Made by a program: the position numbers and the translations under genes. DNA of 32,429 bases. Source: Chloroflexota bacterium. GTDB lineage: Bacteria > Chloroflexota > Anaerolineae > Anaerolineales > Villigracilaceae. The notes under the pieces are model-generated. The model was not told where the DNA came from. It did not search any database and was given only the letters and a program-made list of their open reading frames with translations. Below are positions 13,005 through 29,377 of this stretch, piece by piece. The stretch is from assembly GCA_021795965.1 (NCBI GenBank), contig JAJYOU010000022.1:1-32429 (forward strand), read 5' to 3'. Within the stretch, counting starts at the first letter, position 1; each line of letters begins with the position of its first letter.

Positions 13005-14255
13005 TCAGTTTTTTTCCGCGCGTTGAACCTGCGGCAGCCAGAAAGCCAGCAAGATTGCCGCGATCAAAGCCAGGCTGCCGCCGAAGAGGAAAGGCGCTGC
13101 CGGGCCAAATCCCTGCCACGAACCCGCTCCCTGCCAGAGCAGCCCGGCGATGAACGAAGCCGGGAAAGCCAGGATGCCGATCGTCGCGTTGTAAGTTCCA
13201 TAGGCGGTGCCGCGCAGCTGCTCCGGCACCAGGTCGGCAACCAGGGCGTTCGCGGTGCCAAAAGCCAGCCCGTAATACAACCCGTAGACCACGTACAGCA
13301 CCCAGACTTGCCAGGCAGCCTGCGCAAAGGCAAACCCCAGGTAGATTGCCGCGTACACCAGCCAGCCACCAATGATCAGGCGCCTCCGCCCAATCCGGTC
13401 GGAAAGCGAACCAGCCGGGGTGGAAACCAGCGCATAGATCAGGTTGAACATCGCCAGCATGATCAGGATGCCAGTCACGGTCAAGCCCAGGTTTTGAGCG
13501 CGCAGCACCAGGAAAGCATCCGATGAATTCCCGAGGGTGAAAATGCCGACGATGACCAGGAAAACCAGGAATGGTTTCCCCATCCCGCGCAAAGAAAACT
13601 TCGGCGCAGCCCGTTGCCCCGTCACGGGGACATCTTTTGCCCCGAAAGCGAGCGAAATAACCGCCAGGAAACCTGGCAGCAGGCTGAACAAAACCACGCT
13701 TTGAAAAGTGGCTTTCGACAGGTCCAGCGTATTCTTCTGCGCCAGCCAGACGACCAGCGCCGCGATCAGAATCCCGACCATTGCGCCGGCTGTGTCCATT
13801 GCCCGGTGAAACCCAAACGCCAGTCCGCGGATTTCCTTCGTCACCGAATCCGCCACCAGCGCATCCCGCGGCGCGGTGCGGATGCCTTTGCCCACTCGAT
13901 CTGTCCAGCGCACCCCGGCAATCAACTCCCAGGTATTCGCGAAGTAAAAGAAGGGCTTCGAGACTGCCGATAACCCGTAGCCGGTCACCGCCAGCCACTT
14001 GCGCCCGCCCATTTTGTCTGAAAGCCAGCCCGAGAACAACTTCAAGAGACTCGCGGTCGCCTCTGCAAATCCTTCGATCAAACCGATGATGCTGGTTTGC
14101 ACGCCCAAAACATTGGCGAGGAACAAAGGCAGGATGTTGATCACCATCTCGCTGGATACATCCATAAAAAAACTGGTCAAGCCAACCGCCCAAACATTGC
14201 GCGGCAGATCTCGCACTGAAACACGTTTTGTGGACTTGCCTGTTATTTCTGACAT
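13005..14255 (-). CDS. Major facilitator superfamily transporter
   Basis: A 416-residue transporter with about 12 hydrophobic helices in two halves. The loop 2-3 signatures occur twice: GWLSDKMGGRKW in the first half and GSLSDRIGRRRLIIGG in the second. The segment DRVGKGIRTAPRDALVADS is typical of a group of uncharacterised MFS proteins. The substrate cannot be told. The ATG at 14255 has AAAGGA in front and begins MSEITGKS; an ATG nine codons upstream (14282) lacks a ribosome binding site. It stands alone between two operons of the same strand. A glycerol-related role is possible only by neighbourhood. Confidence 0.88.
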   Translation of the reverse strand: MSEITGKSTKRVSVRDLPRNVWAVGLTSFFMDVSSEMVINILPLFLANVLGVQTSIIGLIEGFAEATASLLKLFSGWLSDKMGGRKWLAVTGYGLSAVSKPFFYFANTWELIAGVRWTDRVGKGIRTAPRDALVADSVTKEIRGLAFGFHRAMDTAGAMVGILIAALVVWLAQKNTLDLSKATFQSVVLFSLLPGFLAVISLAFGAKDVPVTGQRAAPKFSLRGMGKPFLVFLVIVGIFTLGNSSDAFLVLRAQNLGLTVTGILIMLAMFNLIYALVSTPAGSLSDRIGRRRLIIGGWLVYAAIYLGFAFAQAAWQVWVLYVVYGLYYGLAFGTANALVADLVPEQLRGTAYGTYNATIGILAFPASFIAGLLWQGAGSWQGFGPAAPFLFGGSLALIAAILLAFWLPQVQRAEKN

Positions 14256-14530
14256 CTCAATCTCATCCTTTCGAAAGATCATCCATCATTTCGTGATGAT
14301 GGACTCGCGCAGCAAAACCCGCGAAAACCAGCCTGGATCAATCCTGAACAAAGAAAGGCATCTCAACTGCTGAAGGGTATTTTCCTTGTTAGCTAAGTCC
14401 AAACTGAATACCAACATCCAAACAGGTGTTGAAGCAAGTAAAACCTGGTAATCACAGCCTGAAAAGAACGGAATTTTATACATTCTGGCTAAAGTAAATT
14501 AAACAATTGGTCTGGAGAAACTTGGCAAAT
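14256..14530. other. Intergenic region upstream of the MFS gene
   Basis: No gene is seen in these 275 bases. A 7-bp inverted repeat (14283-14289 with 14296-14302) lies about 30 bases upstream of the MFS start and could be an operator or leader hairpin. The rest is AT-rich and carries the 3' end of the DUF190/CBS transcript and presumably the MFS promoter. Confidence 0.35.
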
Positions 14531-15781
14531 TTATCCTGAAGTCATTGCCAGCAGGAGGATATGCCGGTCCACCAGGCCAAGGGGATGATCATTCTCATCC
14601 ACCACCACCAGCCATTTGCGCTTTGGAGACATCATCATTCTGGCAGCCTCCAGCAGAGGTGTATCAGGTTTGGCAGATAGCACACCCGGCGACATGAGCT
14701 TCTGGGCAGTCACTTCGCTGTGTGGTGCAGAGGCTTTTCCCAACAATGCATCCAGCACACCGCGCTGATGTTCAGGTTGAATGCGGGAAACCACATCCGA
14801 ATCGCTGATCAAACCAATCGCTTTGCCGCTGGCATCTGTCACAATGAGACGGTGCGAACCATTTTCAAGAAATGCGTCCACAATGGCAGCCAAATCATCA
14901 TCATAACGCACCGCCGGAATGGTGGTTGACATCACCTCCCGCACACTTTTGGCAGCACCCTGGGGTGGACTAATCTTTTTGGCTTCTTTCGCAGTGACCA
15001 AACGCAATATATCCACCCGTGATAGCATACCAACGATTTTGCCATTATCATTCACTACCGGCAGGCGCTTGATGCCTTCCTTCGCCATCCTGGCGGCTGC
15101 AAAACCAAGCGAATCCCGCGCCCGTACCGTGATGGCTGGTTTGGACATGACATTCGCAACGGTCAGCGAAGAATGAAGAAATCGGGCAGAAGTTTCTCCT
15201 AAAACATTTGAGTCCAGTTTCTGTGCCACCGATAAGCGCTGTGGAACCCCTGCCTTTTCGAGCAAATCTTCATCCGTGAGCATTCCCACCACTTCGCCGT
15301 TCTTATCCACTACGGGGAGGGCTTTCAGCAAGGTCTCAAACATTTTTTGCCAGGCTTCCGCAACCGAGTTTTCAGGGCTGAGCGTGACCACTTCACGAGT
15401 CATCACCTCTTCCACAAGGCGATCGGCGGGCAGCGGGTTGAGGTAGCGATGGGTATAGCGCACCACATGCACATCCTCAACTGTGATCAGCCCTTCATTG
15501 ACCATCGGGCTGACGATTTCAATGGCATGTTCGATTTTCTCCGGGGTATCAACGCTCTGGATGACCAATGGTAAATCTTCCGAGAGCCGCAGGATGGCAG
15601 CTGAATGGATGTGGGAATGTGCGCCAAATCCGGCTACACCTCGCACCACGGTCGCCCCGGCAATTTTCTCCACCTTGAGTGTTTCGATGATGGCTGCGTA
15701 AAGCGGTTTCCCGCGCCATTTATCCGCCTCACCGATATAGATGGACAAAAGTTGTGCTTCCTGACTTAATTTGGGAGTCAT
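14531..15781 (-). CDS. DUF190 + four-CBS-domain protein of the fluoride operon
   Basis: A 416-residue cytosolic protein. Residues 1-110 are a DUF190 domain, a PII-like fold often encoded beside crcB (LSIYIGEADKWRGKPLYAAI, VVRGVAGFGAHS). Four CBS domains follow, each opening with a V..VM or similar motif (VEEVMTREVVTLS, VANVMSKPAITVR, VREVMSTTIPAVR, AQKLMSPGVLSAK). CBS pairs bind adenine nucleotides, so this may sense energy state and adjust the fluoride channel or another target. The frame is open upstream into crcB, but the ATG at 15781 with AAAGGA before it gives a start (MTPKLSQEAQ) typical for DUF190. It lies 14 bases after crcB. Confidence 0.88.
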   Translation of the reverse strand: MTPKLSQEAQLLSIYIGEADKWRGKPLYAAIIETLKVEKIAGATVVRGVAGFGAHSHIHSAAILRLSEDLPLVIQSVDTPEKIEHAIEIVSPMVNEGLITVEDVHVVRYTHRYLNPLPADRLVEEVMTREVVTLSPENSVAEAWQKMFETLLKALPVVDKNGEVVGMLTDEDLLEKAGVPQRLSVAQKLDSNVLGETSARFLHSSLTVANVMSKPAITVRARDSLGFAAARMAKEGIKRLPVVNDNGKIVGMLSRVDILRLVTAKEAKKISPPQGAAKSVREVMSTTIPAVRYDDDLAAIVDAFLENGSHRLIVTDASGKAIGLISDSDVVSRIQPEHQRGVLDALLGKASAPHSEVTAQKLMSPGVLSAKPDTPLLEAARMMMSPKRKWLVVVDENDHPLGLVDRHILLLAMTSG

Positions 15782-16293: not shown

Positions 16294-17793
16294 TTATGAA
16301 CTTGCGCCAAAAATCTTTTTGTATAAATCAGCGCCATAACTGGTTTGCAGTGGTTCGCCCGGGATCAATTTAAAAGTTCTTTCGCCATCGGGCAGTCTTT
16401 CAGCCCGCAGGAAAACAGCGTTTTCCAGGTCCTGGTCAAAAAAGTCATGCGCAAATTCGAATTGATGCGTCACGAAGAAAACCTTGATTTGTTTTTCCAG
16501 CAGGGCGCTCACCACCTGCCTGGCGATCTCTGAGCCTTCCCGCTCGTTGGTGGCAGCGAAAGACTCGTTAAACAACACCATGCAGTTGGACGAGATATTC
16601 CCGACGATACTGCTCATCCTGCCCAGTTCCTCGTCGAGTTTGCCGCTTTTCATGGAAGCATCTTCCTCGCGTTTGTAATGGGTGAAAAGCCCGCGGCAAA
16701 GATTCGCGGAGAATGTTTCTGCCGCCACGAACATGCCGCACTGCAGCATCAATTGCGCCTGACCGATGCTGCGCAAGAAGGTGGATTTGCCGCCCTGGTT
16801 GGCGCCGGTGATCATCACCAGGTCTTTGCCGTCCGCCTCGAGGTCGTTTCCAACCACGCGCTGATTCATGATGAGCGCCAGGCTGATGTCGTACAGCCCG
16901 CTAAAGGTCTGGCTGCGTTCCGAATCAACCGCCGGCTGGGGAAACGTGAGCGGTTCTCCCAGCCTGGCAAGCTGCCCGGAGAGATTCAAACATCCAATGT
17001 AAAACGCCAGTTCGAGGCGCAGAGTTTTGAGAAAACTGTCAATATGGTCGGCAGATTGGGCGACAACATTGGCAACCTGGTTAATACCGCGATCCTTCAA
17101 TTCTTCGAGCGCCCTGGCGCCGTGATCGTCGCGCGGGTGGATGCTGAAGGAATAGACCCGCGATTTTCTCGGGAGAAACCGCTGGATCCAGTTCAGATCA
17201 CCCCGCCTGGGTTTGCGCAGGGTGTAATTCGTCCCTTCATTTCCCCGCCCCACTTCCCCGCTCAGCAGCACTCCCTCCCGAAATTTCAGCTCCCGCAAGG
17301 TTGTTTCGACCTCGGAAAAATACTCATCGTCGAGTTCTCGCTGAACCATGCCAAAGAAACGCTGAAATCCCTCGGATTCAAATTCCCCGCCGTGTTCATC
17401 AGCCAGCTGCTTCAAATGCCTGAGCAATCCGACGAACATCTCGAGCATCTGCACGCCGCCGCTTAATATCGCCGAGGGATAGCGGCTGAAGATACCCATC
17501 CAGTGTTTTTGCTTGTTTTTAATGGATTGAATCGTGATCTGGTAAATCTCCCTCACGACCGCCGGATTTTTCAGGCAATCCGCGAGAATTTCCTGGCGGT
17601 AGCGGATCGGCGCCGGGTCATCCAGGCTCGACAAAACTGCCTGCCGGGCAACTCCCTCTAAAAATTCGTCTTCCTGCGCCATTTCTTCGAAGAGGATGTT
17701 CAATTCCAGGTCTTGAATCAAATCCGCGGCATTGGGCGGGAGTGGTTGTTTCAGCTCGAAATCCTGCCCGGGATACATCAAAAATACTCTCAT
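16294..17793 (-). CDS. MutS-like ATPase B (second of a tandem pair), fluoride operon
   Basis: A 499-residue protein with the MutS core/lever region and C-terminal MutS ATPase domain but without the N-terminal mismatch-binding domain and without a Smr nuclease domain. The Walker A is TGANQGGKST (329-338, compare GPNMGGKST in MutS). The Walker B region reads MVLFNESFAATN, with Asn409-Glu410 where MutS has Asp-Glu. ATP-domain partner motifs EELGRMSSIV and FFVTHQFEF follow. The start codon overlaps the stop of the upstream homologue by four bases (ATGA, 17790-17793), so the two are translationally coupled and probably make a heterodimer. It is not a classical mismatch repair MutS (about 850 residues). 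Function is unknown; regulation by the fluoride riboswitch is inferred from the operon. Confidence 0.85.
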   Translation of the reverse strand: MRVFLMYPGQDFELKQPLPPNAADLIQDLELNILFEEMAQEDEFLEGVARQAVLSSLDDPAPIRYRQEILADCLKNPAVVREIYQITIQSIKNKQKHWMGIFSRYPSAILSGGVQMLEMFVGLLRHLKQLADEHGGEFESEGFQRFFGMVQRELDDEYFSEVETTLRELKFREGVLLSGEVGRGNEGTNYTLRKPRRGDLNWIQRFLPRKSRVYSFSIHPRDDHGARALEELKDRGINQVANVVAQSADHIDSFLKTLRLELAFYIGCLNLSGQLARLGEPLTFPQPAVDSERSQTFSGLYDISLALIMNQRVVGNDLEADGKDLVMITGANQGGKSTFLRSIGQAQLMLQCGMFVAAETFSANLCRGLFTHYKREEDASMKSGKLDEELGRMSSIVGNISSNCMVLFNESFAATNEREGSEIARQVVSALLEKQIKVFFVTHQFEFAHDFFDQDLENAVFLRAERLPDGERTFKLIPGEPLQTSYGADLYKKIFGASS

Positions 17794-19316
17794 GACCGGA
17801 TGCGCTCCTTGATCTGCTCATAATTGAGAGCATGCTTTTCAGCGAGCGAATGGGCATATGCCAGCCCATCAGCGGGTTTGCGAATGATTTTGAAAGTGCG
17901 TTCAGCCGGGTTTTCAGGCACGACGGTGCTGACCATGCTGACGGTTTTTTCATTGATGGAAGCCATTTCATCCATAAAAGTGACCCAGACACAGCGCAAA
18001 TCCAGTTCCAGCACCCGCGCCATGATCTGCCTGCTCAGAAAAACAGCGTCTTTGAGGGCGGTGGATGAAAATATTTCATTCAGGATCAGGATGCTCTCAG
18101 GAGTTGCCTGTTCAGTGATCGCATGGATTCGCAGCAGGTCATCCTGTAATTTGCCTGCCAGGTTGTGAATTTCTTCCTCGCGCTCAAAATGCGTGAAAAT
18201 CTGGTCGAAAAGATGCAGTCGCGCCTGCCTGCCCGGCACGAGGCAGCCCAGGCTGGCAAGATAATGCAGCTGACCAAATGTGCGCGCAAAGGTGGTTTTT
18301 CCGCCCTGGTTGGGACCGGTCACAACCAGGACGCGCTCGGGATCGTGCAGGACGAAATCATTGCAAATGACTGGCGTCTGTGTAAACAGCAGCGTGCCAG
18401 CCAGGGCGATATCGAACCCCTCTGAAACAAAGACCTCGCGGTTTTCATCAATTTGAGGGCTGCAAAAAGTCAGACCTTTGTCTTTGAAATGATCGATGTA
18501 ATCCAGGAATGCGATATAAAACTGGATTTCCCGCTCAAAAACGCGCAGGGTCTCAGCCACAAACTGGGCATGCCGCTCGCAAAAACGGTCGAGCGCGGCA
18601 AAGGGTTCGGGATGGAGCAGGGCGACGAATTCCAAAATCTGCGCACCGACATGGTTCATGCCCGGCGTATCTTTGATGACGCTCCGATAATCTTCGACCG
18701 CGCCCTGCTTAAATTTTTCAAAGGTTTTCTCAACCTCCAGGCTGTAGTCTGATTCTTCTTCATACTTGCGCACTTTGACCGTGTTGTCCTTGATGATCAG
18801 GCTGTATTTCACGCCTGCCAGCGCGGTTTTGACTTTGTGCGTCTCCGCCGATAGAATCTTGAAATCCTCCGTTTGAACGTAGCTGGTTAAGTACTCGCGC
18901 AGCCCCAAAAACCCGCTCGATTTAACCGGCGCAGCGAGCATATTTTTCGTCAGCTCACTGACAGCCTCACAGTAGACGATTGCAGCTTCCAGGAACCAGC
19001 CCTTTTTATGATGGTTGTAATCCAATTTCTCCGCCATCGCGAGGTAGCGGCGCAGCAAAACCATTTTTTCGGCAAAGGTTTTCATGTTCGCCAGCAGCAC
19101 CCCGTCACCCAGATCCTGCAGTACATCCTGGCGGTAGCGCACAGTTCCGGCATCCTGCAGCGGGCTGTAAAAAAACGGCTTCAAATTGTATTCCTGTTTT
19201 TTCGCCGTGATGGCGTTGACCACCTGGTCAAGATTCAGGTCGCTAAAATAAGCGGGTTGCTCTGCGGTTTCTTTCTGAAGGTCATCCCAGTTAAAAAGAA
19301 TACTGTGGAAAATCAT
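17790..19316 (-). CDS. MutS-like ATPase A (first of a tandem pair), behind a fluoride riboswitch
   Basis: A 508-residue homologue of the next gene. Both share an early YRQ[DE][IV]L motif (about residue 61-66), a helical middle part and a MutS-type ATPase. Here the Walker A is TGPNQGGKTT (333-342), the Walker B region is ILILNEIFSSTA (Asn413-Glu414), and CVWVTFMDE stands where the switch His of MutS is expected, so the His is absent. No mismatch-recognition or nuclease domain is present. The ATG at 19316 is preferred; a TTG one codon upstream is possible, as AGGA lies six bases before it and nine before the ATG. The gene starts about 30 bases after the terminator of a fluoride riboswitch, which makes it the first protein controlled by fluoride in this operon. 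Confidence 0.85.
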   Translation of the reverse strand: MIFHSILFNWDDLQKETAEQPAYFSDLNLDQVVNAITAKKQEYNLKPFFYSPLQDAGTVRYRQDVLQDLGDGVLLANMKTFAEKMVLLRRYLAMAEKLDYNHHKKGWFLEAAIVYCEAVSELTKNMLAAPVKSSGFLGLREYLTSYVQTEDFKILSAETHKVKTALAGVKYSLIIKDNTVKVRKYEEESDYSLEVEKTFEKFKQGAVEDYRSVIKDTPGMNHVGAQILEFVALLHPEPFAALDRFCERHAQFVAETLRVFEREIQFYIAFLDYIDHFKDKGLTFCSPQIDENREVFVSEGFDIALAGTLLFTQTPVICNDFVLHDPERVLVVTGPNQGGKTTFARTFGQLHYLASLGCLVPGRQARLHLFDQIFTHFEREEEIHNLAGKLQDDLLRIHAITEQATPESILILNEIFSSTALKDAVFLSRQIMARVLELDLRCVWVTFMDEMASINEKTVSMVSTVVPENPAERTFKIIRKPADGLAYAHSLAEKHALNYEQIKERIRS

Positions 19317-19347
19317 CAATCCAAATCCTGTTCTTTTGCTCTTAAGG

Positions 19348-19390
19348 AAAACAAAAAGCCTCTACTGAAAGATTCTTTTCAGTAGAGGCT
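19348..19390 (-). terminator. Riboswitch-controlled intrinsic terminator
   Basis: A perfect 14-bp stem (19357-19370 with 19377-19390) with a 6-base loop is followed on the minus strand by TTTTTGTTTT. This is a textbook intrinsic terminator. Its 5' arm begins AGCCTC, the same bases that form the 3' strand of the riboswitch pseudoknot, so the two structures exclude each other. Fluoride binding should prevent termination and let the mutS-like/crcB operon be transcribed. Confidence 0.93.
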
Positions 19391-19430
19391 ATCAGTCCGA
19401 AGGACGGTTGCGGCGAGCCTCATCGCCAAG
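19381..19430 (-). ncRNA. Fluoride riboswitch (crcB motif RNA)
   Basis: On the minus strand the RNA has the core GGCGAUGAGGCUCGCC (from 19427), a CAA linker, a short hairpin GUCC-UUC-GGAC, then CUGAUAGCCUCUACU. This matches the known fluoride aptamer (Thermotoga petrophila form) almost base for base: the GGCG/CGCC helix, the GAUG loop start, the CUGAU segment and the UCUACUG tail. The pseudoknot is GAGGCU (19421-19416) with AGCCUC (19390-19385), six perfect pairs. The terminator overlaps this pseudoknot strand, so it should be a fluoride-ON switch. It controls the two MutS-like genes and, further on, crcB and the DUF190/CBS gene. Confidence 0.95.
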
Positions 19431-19438
19431 TGAGCTTG

Positions 19439-19447
19439 ATTCTACCA
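19439..19447 (-). promoter_or_regulatory. Extended -10 promoter of the fluoride operon
   Basis: On the minus strand TGG-TAGAAT forms an extended -10 element (TGn plus 5 of 6 matches to TATAAT). The predicted start near 19432 lies just before the first base of the riboswitch aptamer, as expected for a riboswitch leader. No good -35 is seen at 16-18 bases, which extended -10 promoters tolerate. Confidence 0.55.
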
Positions 19448-29007: not shown

Positions 29008-29057
29008 GTTCTGTCCTCCATATTTATTTGGTGCCTCAGGTCAGTCTATAAGCCGCA
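29008..29057. repeat. 50-base direct repeat, copy 2 (includes the true rnpB 3' end)
   Basis: The second copy overlaps the real 3' end of rnpB from 29032 on. TTCTGTCCTCC, which opens the repeat, also follows the end of this copy inside rnpB (29058-29068), which suggests that the duplications arose by unequal exchange at that motif. Confidence 0.85.
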
Positions 29058-29377
29058 TTCTGTCCTCCCCTTGCGGGGATGGATGACCATCTCTCTAGGC
29101 GGTCTACCCGGGACTCAAAGAGGCGAGCAGCCTCTCATCCCTGTTTGACCTTGCTCCCGCTGGGGGTTACCTGGCCGCCCGCATTACTGCGAACGCCGGT
29201 GGTCTCTTGCACCACCTTTTCACCATGACCCCGCTTTCACGAGGCTGTTTGTTTCTGTGGCCCTATCCGGCAGATCTCTCCACCCCGGGCTTTCCCCGGC
29301 AGCGCGCTCTTCGGAGTGCGGACTTTCCTCGACCCTGGCTGGCAGAGCCGCGGTCACCCGACCAACCTGAGGCAGCC
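29032..29377 (-). ncRNA. rnpB: RNase P RNA (bacterial type A)
   Basis: The catalytic RNA that removes the 5' leader of pre-tRNAs. On the minus strand it has the conserved GAGGAAAGTCCGCACTCC (near 29330-29313), GGGTAGACC (29109-29101) and ACAGAATGCGGCTTAT near the 3' end. The ends pair in helix P1: TGCCTCAGGT at the 5' end (29374-29365) with ACCTGAGGCA at the 3' end (29041-29032). The length of about 346 bases fits a type A RNA. A strong promoter lies upstream at 29381-29409. Confidence 0.96.

Follow-up and report, generated by a model that had tools for sequence, protein, structure and literature searches.

Bacterial resistance to fluoride is usually accounted for by export of the ion together with extra copies of the enzymes that it blocks. 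Enolase, pyrophosphatase, and kinases are inhibited by fluoride, typically in the ~100 micromolar range, and the genes most commonly linked to fluoride riboswitches include those of pyrophosphatase and formate hydrogenlyase, with enolase often linked too (PMC11139923); the terms 'MutS' and 'DNA repair' are absent from the main text of that review. In a single clause, Weinberg 2010 places genes 'involved in DNA repair (mutS)' behind the crcB motif (PMC2864571), in agreement with an initial annotation, made from the sequence alone, of the DNA studied here. The clause pre-dates fluoride as the known ligand, places the genes in DNA repair, and gives no pair, family, or role. Here we describe a tandem pair of MutS-like ATPase genes, A and B, behind a fluoride riboswitch in a 32,429-nucleotide stretch (the window) of a Chloroflexota bacterium (GTDB family Villigracilaceae; assembly GCA_021795965.1, contig JAJYOU010000022.1, positions 1 to 32,429). 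The pair is very likely the 'mutS' of Weinberg 2010, and we found no functional study of it in the literature on fluoride, riboswitches, and fluoride resistance in combination with MutS. New here, on the evidence of sequence comparisons, is a tandem paralog family with an Asn-Glu Walker B motif, whose two members occur together at all named loci examined and whose link to fluoride riboswitches has statistical support across phyla and on plasmids.

The closest described proteins are MutS and its MSH relatives (TIGR01070), MutS2 (TIGR01069), and KamC, the lysine 5,6-aminomutase reactivase ATPase (NF052383), all of which share an ATPase domain with A and B, C-terminal and of ABC type in the case of MutS and MSH. 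The sole Pfam family above cut-off in either protein is MutS_V (PF00488; gathering score 30.2 bits), which bears out the claim of the initial annotation that both lack mismatch-binding and nuclease domains; MutS_I and MutS_II (mismatch-binding and connector) did not exceed the Pfam cut-off in A or B. Scores were far under the equivalog cut-offs for MutS1 (68.1 bits for A and 63.8 for B against 641.7) and also below those for MutS2 (59.9 and 68.5 against 400, with no Smr nuclease domain by Pfam) and KamC (50.3 and 69.8 against 300, the eight genes above this cut-off scoring 479–609), although KamC was the best NCBIfam match of B. In searches of PDB and of MutS1, MutS2, and KamC sets, alignment was confined to the ATPase region at the C-terminus, reaching no more than a short way in front of it, and the N-terminal ~270–310 residues, where a clamp would sit, matched none of the MutS1, MutS2, KamC, or PDB profiles used. 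The profiles of A and B align with each other across 442 columns (probability 99.95, E 1.5e-37, 21% identity), so the sequences identify the two as paralogs across nearly their full length.

The Walker A motif GxNxGGK[ST] is intact in the A and B alignment columns. In all 72 A sequences and in 87 of the 88 B sequences, Asn takes the place of the Walker B Asp, and an invariant Glu follows, whereas MutS1 (four readable sequences, six loci searched), MutS2 (four), and KamC (eight, that of locus L173 printed in a shifted window yet ending LDE) carry Asp-Glu. Asn-Glu was also found in the divergent and plasmid members read, except in the B of L166, for which the motif search gave other windows, and it offers a simple annotation marker telling the family from real MutS. 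In a domain-V tree rooted on MutS1 (24 A, 30 B, 8 KamC, 4 MutS2, and 4 MutS1 sequences), A and B fall into a single clade (support 0.989; 0.998 for A and 0.693 for B) separate from MutS2 and KamC. Canonical MutS or MutS2 is therefore ruled out by cut-offs, domains, Walker B, and tree, and membership in KamC by score and coverage; as judged from sequence, A-B is a tandem paralog family distinct from all three. MutS and MSH proteins differ further from the ~500-aa A and B in their N-terminal half, the core of MutS2 is not alignable with them, and KamC, likewise a stand-alone MutS-like ATPase of ~500 aa outside mismatch repair, resembles them in the ATPase domain only. An anti-phage system was also rejected: PADLOC found nothing for A and, for B, no more than two marginal hits (E 0.004 and 0.006). 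Isoelectric points were set aside as evidence, as acidic values fail to separate DNA-binding MutS from others.

In the window, the order proposed by the initial annotation was recovered in full: a riboswitch with an overlapping terminator, two MutS-like genes that overlap by four bases, and crcB third (Table 1). The 3' pseudoknot strand of the aptamer sits inside the 5' arm of the terminator, an overlap that suggests mutually exclusive folding of the two. The terminator hairpin is also present in the minimum-energy fold (z -4.24), and among 11 terminator-like sites between 12800 and 20900 (10.4 by chance) its stem is by far the longest. Promoter-like sites in this region numbered eight on both strands (5.1 by chance), with none on the minus strand from the aptamer up to 20868. 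The aptamer is the sole RF01734 match in its own genome, an assembly that is 62% complete and in 39 contigs. Among 36 aptamers preceding A, including that of the window, pairing at P1 and the pseudoknot is kept in 97.8% of cells (100% for the pseudoknot), with 72 double-change cells and a covariation score of 0.581. None of 500 shuffles, and no slid version, matched the values for cells paired, double-change cells, or covariation score; coarser measures were reached by shuffles (pairs with a double change in 14 of 500, further pair types in 366 of 500). A chance riboswitch is thus ruled out by the covariation and by the recurrence of the aptamer before the pair across loci.

Among 60 genomes of relatives, A homologs (E 1e-100 or better) were found in 12 besides that of the window, adjacent to B in 11, and the twelfth (G048) has a single gene whose front resembles A and whose end resembles B. 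Such a gene, as if the pair had collapsed into a chimera, lies behind a fluoride riboswitch at L033:7729-9252 (-). Ten of the 12 relatives have an aptamer above cut-off. G049 has a 29.7-bit match directly before A and a second, divergent one of 30.5 bits, and G060 a 25.9-bit match far upstream with three genes intervening; in a thirteenth genome (G051), a decayed pair lies next to a 30.7-bit site. As crcB adjoins B in only four of the 12, it is a frequent, not constant, neighbor of the pair.

For a wider survey, 84,980 species genomes were scanned with a profile of B and the best 80 of at least 580 relatives kept, a set biased toward close relatives and including many contigs of metagenome-assembled genomes (MAGs), possibly misbinned. 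Riboswitches were mapped with the Rfam model over whole genomes and with a family model, R1, which favors window-type aptamers because its 15 source sequences are aptamers from relatives of the window (four below the Rfam cut-off). Locus counts rest on a hand-made motif check of Rfam matches plus R1 matches of at least 18 bits and whole-genome counts on the Rfam model; all are lower bounds for the matches listed. The 80 loci span Chloroflexota, Bacillota, Desulfobacterota, Spirochaetota, Pseudomonadota, Bacteroidota, Thermotogae, and others, and in all of them B has A, or part of it, directly upstream; in some, A is split or runs off the contig. Isolates with the pair include Anaerolinea thermolimosa IMO-1 (L075) and Thermoanaerobacter wiegelii Rt8.B1 (L056). 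L035, L043, L045, and L049 are apparently the same as L023, L024, L022, and L025 of the relatives' set, an overlap of four excluded from the 106-locus neighbor count only. At least 63 of the 80 have a fluoride riboswitch in the fetched stretch, within 650 nt before A in 48, farther upstream on the same strand in 12, and elsewhere in three; some A starts were extrapolated from partial BLAST matches, and L059 thus counts as 'elsewhere' though its site precedes a piece of A. The other 17 have no riboswitch among the matches listed: six are cut at A, four have less than 700 nt upstream, and seven have enough flank. These seven comprise two loci with enolase (L040, L112), one with pyrophosphatase-like and MFS genes (L096), one with MFS (L044), and three without the searched genes. 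In samples around three of the genomes, B was confined to the center genome (Alphaproteobacteria-class, 1/142; Bacteroidota, 1/198; Formimonas-class, 1/43; taxon names inferred). Several genomes are rich in riboswitches: a Hyphomicrobiales MAG (G132, L108) has at least 20 matches and two B copies, G127 (L103) has at least 13, and in Formimonas warabiya (L048) seven sites precede enolase, DUF6062, antiporter, A-B, crcB-DUF190, dynamin-like GTPase, and one unidentified gene.

A sample of 301 Chloroflexota genomes, scanned for riboswitches with stricter filters, is a less biased test. B (E 1e-60 or better) occurs in 33 of them and a fluoride riboswitch in at least 95. Riboswitches are present in at least 27 of the 33 genomes with B and in at least 68 of the 268 without (Fisher p 3.5e-10, odds ratio 13). 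As a small control, none of 11 other A-matching frames of at least 800 aa in six genomes (G000, G014, G026, G027, G036, and G048), mostly MutS and MutS2 as judged by size, lies by eye within 10 kb of a listed riboswitch.

The pair is mobile and is carried on plasmids. Plasmid records with a match to B number 50, of which Klebsiella accounts for 20, Rhodococcus and Citrobacter for six each, Enterobacter for five, Burkholderia for three, and others for the rest; 22 of the 50 are predicted to be conjugative. All seven plasmid loci examined, picked from 15 of these records, have a fluoride riboswitch in the stretch. In L180 and L184 A follows it directly, in L179 and L183 it heads an antiporter-USP-A-B run, in L181 it precedes the divergent antiporter gene, and in the unannotated L185 it lies ~2 kb upstream of B; in L182 riboswitches precede only crcB genes, ~4 kb past B. 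A near copy was found in one of 5,426 complete Escherichia coli genomes, on a wastewater plasmid where an annotated riboswitch is accompanied by a cation:proton antiporter, a USP, and two 'MutS-related' proteins. Behind an adjacent second annotated riboswitch stand genes of pyrophosphatase type (DHHA2), USP, eno, phosphoglycerate mutase, crcB, and P-type ATPase, and behind a third stands a chloride-channel-type gene. This second group has the gene types of the proven fluoride operon of Enterobacter cloacae FRM (PMC5533749), which also lie beside the pair on Citrobacter plasmids.

The initial annotation had supposed that the two proteins are part of the fluoride response, and the link indeed extends far beyond the window, through its relatives, the survey, the Chloroflexota sample, and the plasmids. 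By their sequences, A and B are paralogous MutS-superfamily ATPase proteins, encoded in tandem and repeatedly found under fluoride riboswitches with other fluoride-defense genes, and the pair is a module of the fluoride regulon and not a local oddity. On this evidence a role of A-B in the fluoride response can be put forward with high confidence. The pair is probably a part of bacterial fluoride survival, unstudied so far, and would be a further widespread and mobile component beside export and extra enzyme copies.

Table 1. Features of the riboswitch locus in the window.
Feature	Position	Strand	Evidence
Fluoride riboswitch aptamer (RF01734)	19376..19436	-	cmscan 40.7 bits vs gathering score 34, E 4e-8
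Intrinsic terminator hairpin, predicted expression platform (ON switch)	19357..19390	-	14-bp stem, then T-run
Gene A, MutS-like ATPase subunit, 508 aa	17790..19316	-	PF00488 MutS_V 68.9 bits
Gene B, MutS-like ATPase subunit, 499 aa	16294..17793	-	PF00488 67.8 bits; 4-base ATGA overlap with A
crcB (Fluc fluoride channel), 124 aa	15796..16170	-	PF02537 CRCB 92 bits; TIGR00494 102.4 vs cut-off 80.45 bits
DUF190 + four CBS domains, probable fourth operon gene	14531..15781	-	PF02641 + 4 x PF00571
MFS transporter, possible last operon gene	13005..14282	-	PF07690; 248-nt gap after DUF190-CBS

The open reading frame listed for A (17790-19319) has a TTG start at 19319; the ATG at 19316 is preferred. 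The ATG of the DUF190-CBS gene, positioned from its translation, lies 14 nt past the crcB stop, and DUF190-CBS also adjoins crcB in four relatives. By BLAST, the MFS gene clusters with four MFS genes that stand directly behind fluoride riboswitches elsewhere.

Neighbors of the pair were counted in 106 loci on the same strand, over spans reaching 700 nt upstream of A and 450 nt downstream of B. Enolase was found eight times, crcB or DUF190 ~12 times, dynamin-like genes five times, and pyrophosphatase-like genes three times; others were MFS genes or hydrogenase-like subunits, both superfamily-level matches. Over whole stretches, enolase occurs in 27 of 112 (the 112 include four duplicates, all lacking enolase). 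A selection of the neighbor genes was covered by the Pfam scan.

Taken whole, the best explanation we can offer, and one we hold tentatively, is a switch-controlled set in which CrcB acts together with A-B and A-B revives fluoride-locked enzymes. A rise in cytoplasmic fluoride would let the aptamer pseudoknot form and so block the terminator, upon which A, B, CrcB, and DUF190-CBS would be made together. CrcB would lower free fluoride, and A-B, presumably a heterodimer, would change shape on binding ATP and slowly hydrolyzing it. In doing so it might pry open Mg2+-phosphate enzymes locked by fluoride, with enolase, pyrophosphatase, and the like as putative clients, and restore their activity; conjecturally, the Walker B Asn would protect A-B itself against such locking by magnesium fluoride. 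ATP-driven remodeling of blocked enzymes, a mechanism drawn by analogy, is thus possible rather than probable. We favor it because the recurring neighbors are blocked enzymes and exporters, not DNA genes; because the MutS-like KamC has already been named a reactivase, in its NCBIfam name; and because the altered Mg2+ site of both proteins would, as a conjecture, suit an ATPase running in fluoride. The fullest version, an obligate heterodimeric MutS-derived ATPase that is fluoride-hardened by Asn in both subunits, goes on cycling where magnesium fluoride stalls ordinary ATPases, and reactivates enolase, pyrophosphatase, and other Mg-phosphate enzymes, is doubtful; if true, it would be a dedicated repair of enzymes poisoned by an inorganic ion, spread across phyla on plasmids and islands.

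Several observations weigh against enzyme remodeling or against the fluoride link itself. The likeness of KamC to A and B is limited to the ATPase domain, and both proteins score far below its cut-off; KamC resembles the MutS2 core, and the analogy is therefore loose. For the reactivase function of KamC we found no paper, only the NCBIfam name. In other P-loop ATPases, an exchange of Asp for Asn at Walker B usually slows hydrolysis, and the Asn of A and B may mean very weak hydrolysis. Families that look unrelated to fluoride also lie near the pair (amidase, aminotransferase, ABC-F-type, CofD, RCC1, and more), and one clear client enzyme is ruled out because the neighbors are scattered over many genes of the fluoride regulon and beyond. 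Of the 33 Chloroflexota genomes with B, at least 18 have an Rfam match no farther than 10 kb from that gene, nine have matches only elsewhere in the genome, and six have none among the matches listed. Three of the nine have weaker R1 sites just before A (G703, 27.3 bits; G505, 25.5; G608, 20.9, a partial site). The initial annotation had also asked whether the pair occurs elsewhere without any fluoride link, and here the answer is divided: most loci are linked, whereas 15 of the 33 Chloroflexota members have no listed match within 10 kb and seven of the 80 surveyed loci have none. B members without a linked riboswitch are mostly divergent. Several of these exceptions still stand beside enolase or pyrophosphatase-like genes: L149 has a pyrophosphatase-like gene, A, B, and enolase, L155 has enolase ~1 kb before A, and L154 a pyrophosphatase-like gene after B. 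None of the searched fluoride-type genes are neighbors in L150, L151, L153, L156, and L157. Finally, the six-gene operon of E. cloacae FRM confers high fluoride resistance, and the table of its island holds no MutS-like gene (PMC5533749).

The foremost alternative, which we consider unlikely, is that A-B closes ATP-dependently on DNA or RNA, much as MutS or Msh2-Msh6 does, and shields or flags damage arising in fluoride. Both subunits carry the MutS ATPase domain, and two related subunits, presumably a dimer in A-B, recall the MSH heterodimers Msh2-Msh6 and Msh2-Msh3. NUDIX genes lie near a few pairs, and some NUDIX proteins clean nucleotide pools. The mutS genes of the crcB motif were classed under DNA repair by Weinberg 2010 (PMC2864571). 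Such a clamp is hard to reconcile with the failure of Pfam to find mismatch-binding and nuclease domains, with an N-terminal region unalignable with MutS1, MutS2, or KamC, and with MutS-type frames of ~800–900 aa that coexist with the pair in the relatives' genomes. NUDIX aside, the selected neighbors scanned with Pfam include no DNA-repair family, and those that recur are fluoride-blocked enzymes and transporters.

The altered Mg2+ handling suggested by Asn in both subunits would also fit a sensor of fluoride or nucleotide state, in which A-B would take up ADP together with magnesium fluoride, pass on the signal or sequester what it has bound, and thereby control a channel or a stress protein rather than repair enzymes. 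DUF190-CBS and USP genes adjoin the pair, and CBS- and USP-type domains bind nucleotides in other proteins. As the riboswitch already senses fluoride and the conserved Lys and Glu suggest that ATP turnover matters, we regard this as improbable. Distinctly improbable is an action on stalled or collided ribosomes in fluoride, after the manner of MutS2, which acts on ribosomes in Bacillus. The structures in PDB that match the ATPase domain include MutS2 chains (8qpp, 7qv3), and in L024 the pair lies beside an ABC-F-type gene on the opposite strand, from a family that includes translation factors; but the likeness to MutS2 ends at the ATPase domain, no Smr domain is found by Pfam, and apart from that one gene no ribosomal or translation family occurs among the selected neighbors scanned. 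That the pair merely rides fluoride islands for another need, its switch control being incidental, is highly improbable: the Chloroflexota members without a nearby listed Rfam riboswitch speak for it, as does a divergent clade (L158–L162) in which the pair follows hydrogenase-like Proton_antipo_M subunits with no Rfam riboswitch listed on the contigs, but the pair lies directly behind the switch in at least 48 of 80 loci from many phyla, every plasmid setting examined has a fluoride riboswitch, and formate-hydrogenlyase genes are themselves listed for the crcB motif (PMC2864571).

If A-B does revive fluoride-blocked enzymes, it would represent a new stress mechanism, with MutS folds acting on proteins; if it is instead a clamp on DNA or RNA, it would reveal fluoride injury of a new kind. 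Either way, a loose end from 2010 becomes testable in isolates and plasmids.

Two further protein families were noticed around these riboswitches. One of ~157 aa stands directly behind them (L028:1193-1666 (-), L035:11434-11913 (-), L055:2175-2639 (+), and L081:4413-6179 (-)); the L081 member is fused to the front of enolase (588 aa), and that of L028, which had no Pfam or NCBIfam match, lies just before an enolase gene. Its placement suggests that it is possibly an enolase-protecting domain. The other, of ~490 aa, lies behind fluoride riboswitches or beside the pair (L031:2692-4146 (+), L034:7276-8766 (+), L032:11820-13292 (-), L154:1353-2822 (-), and L149:5813-7087 (+)); two scanned members have a weak pyrophosphatase-like N-terminal domain, the remainder being without a known match. 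The window also encodes a bacterial RNase P RNA of class A (29033-29369 (-), 226 bits).

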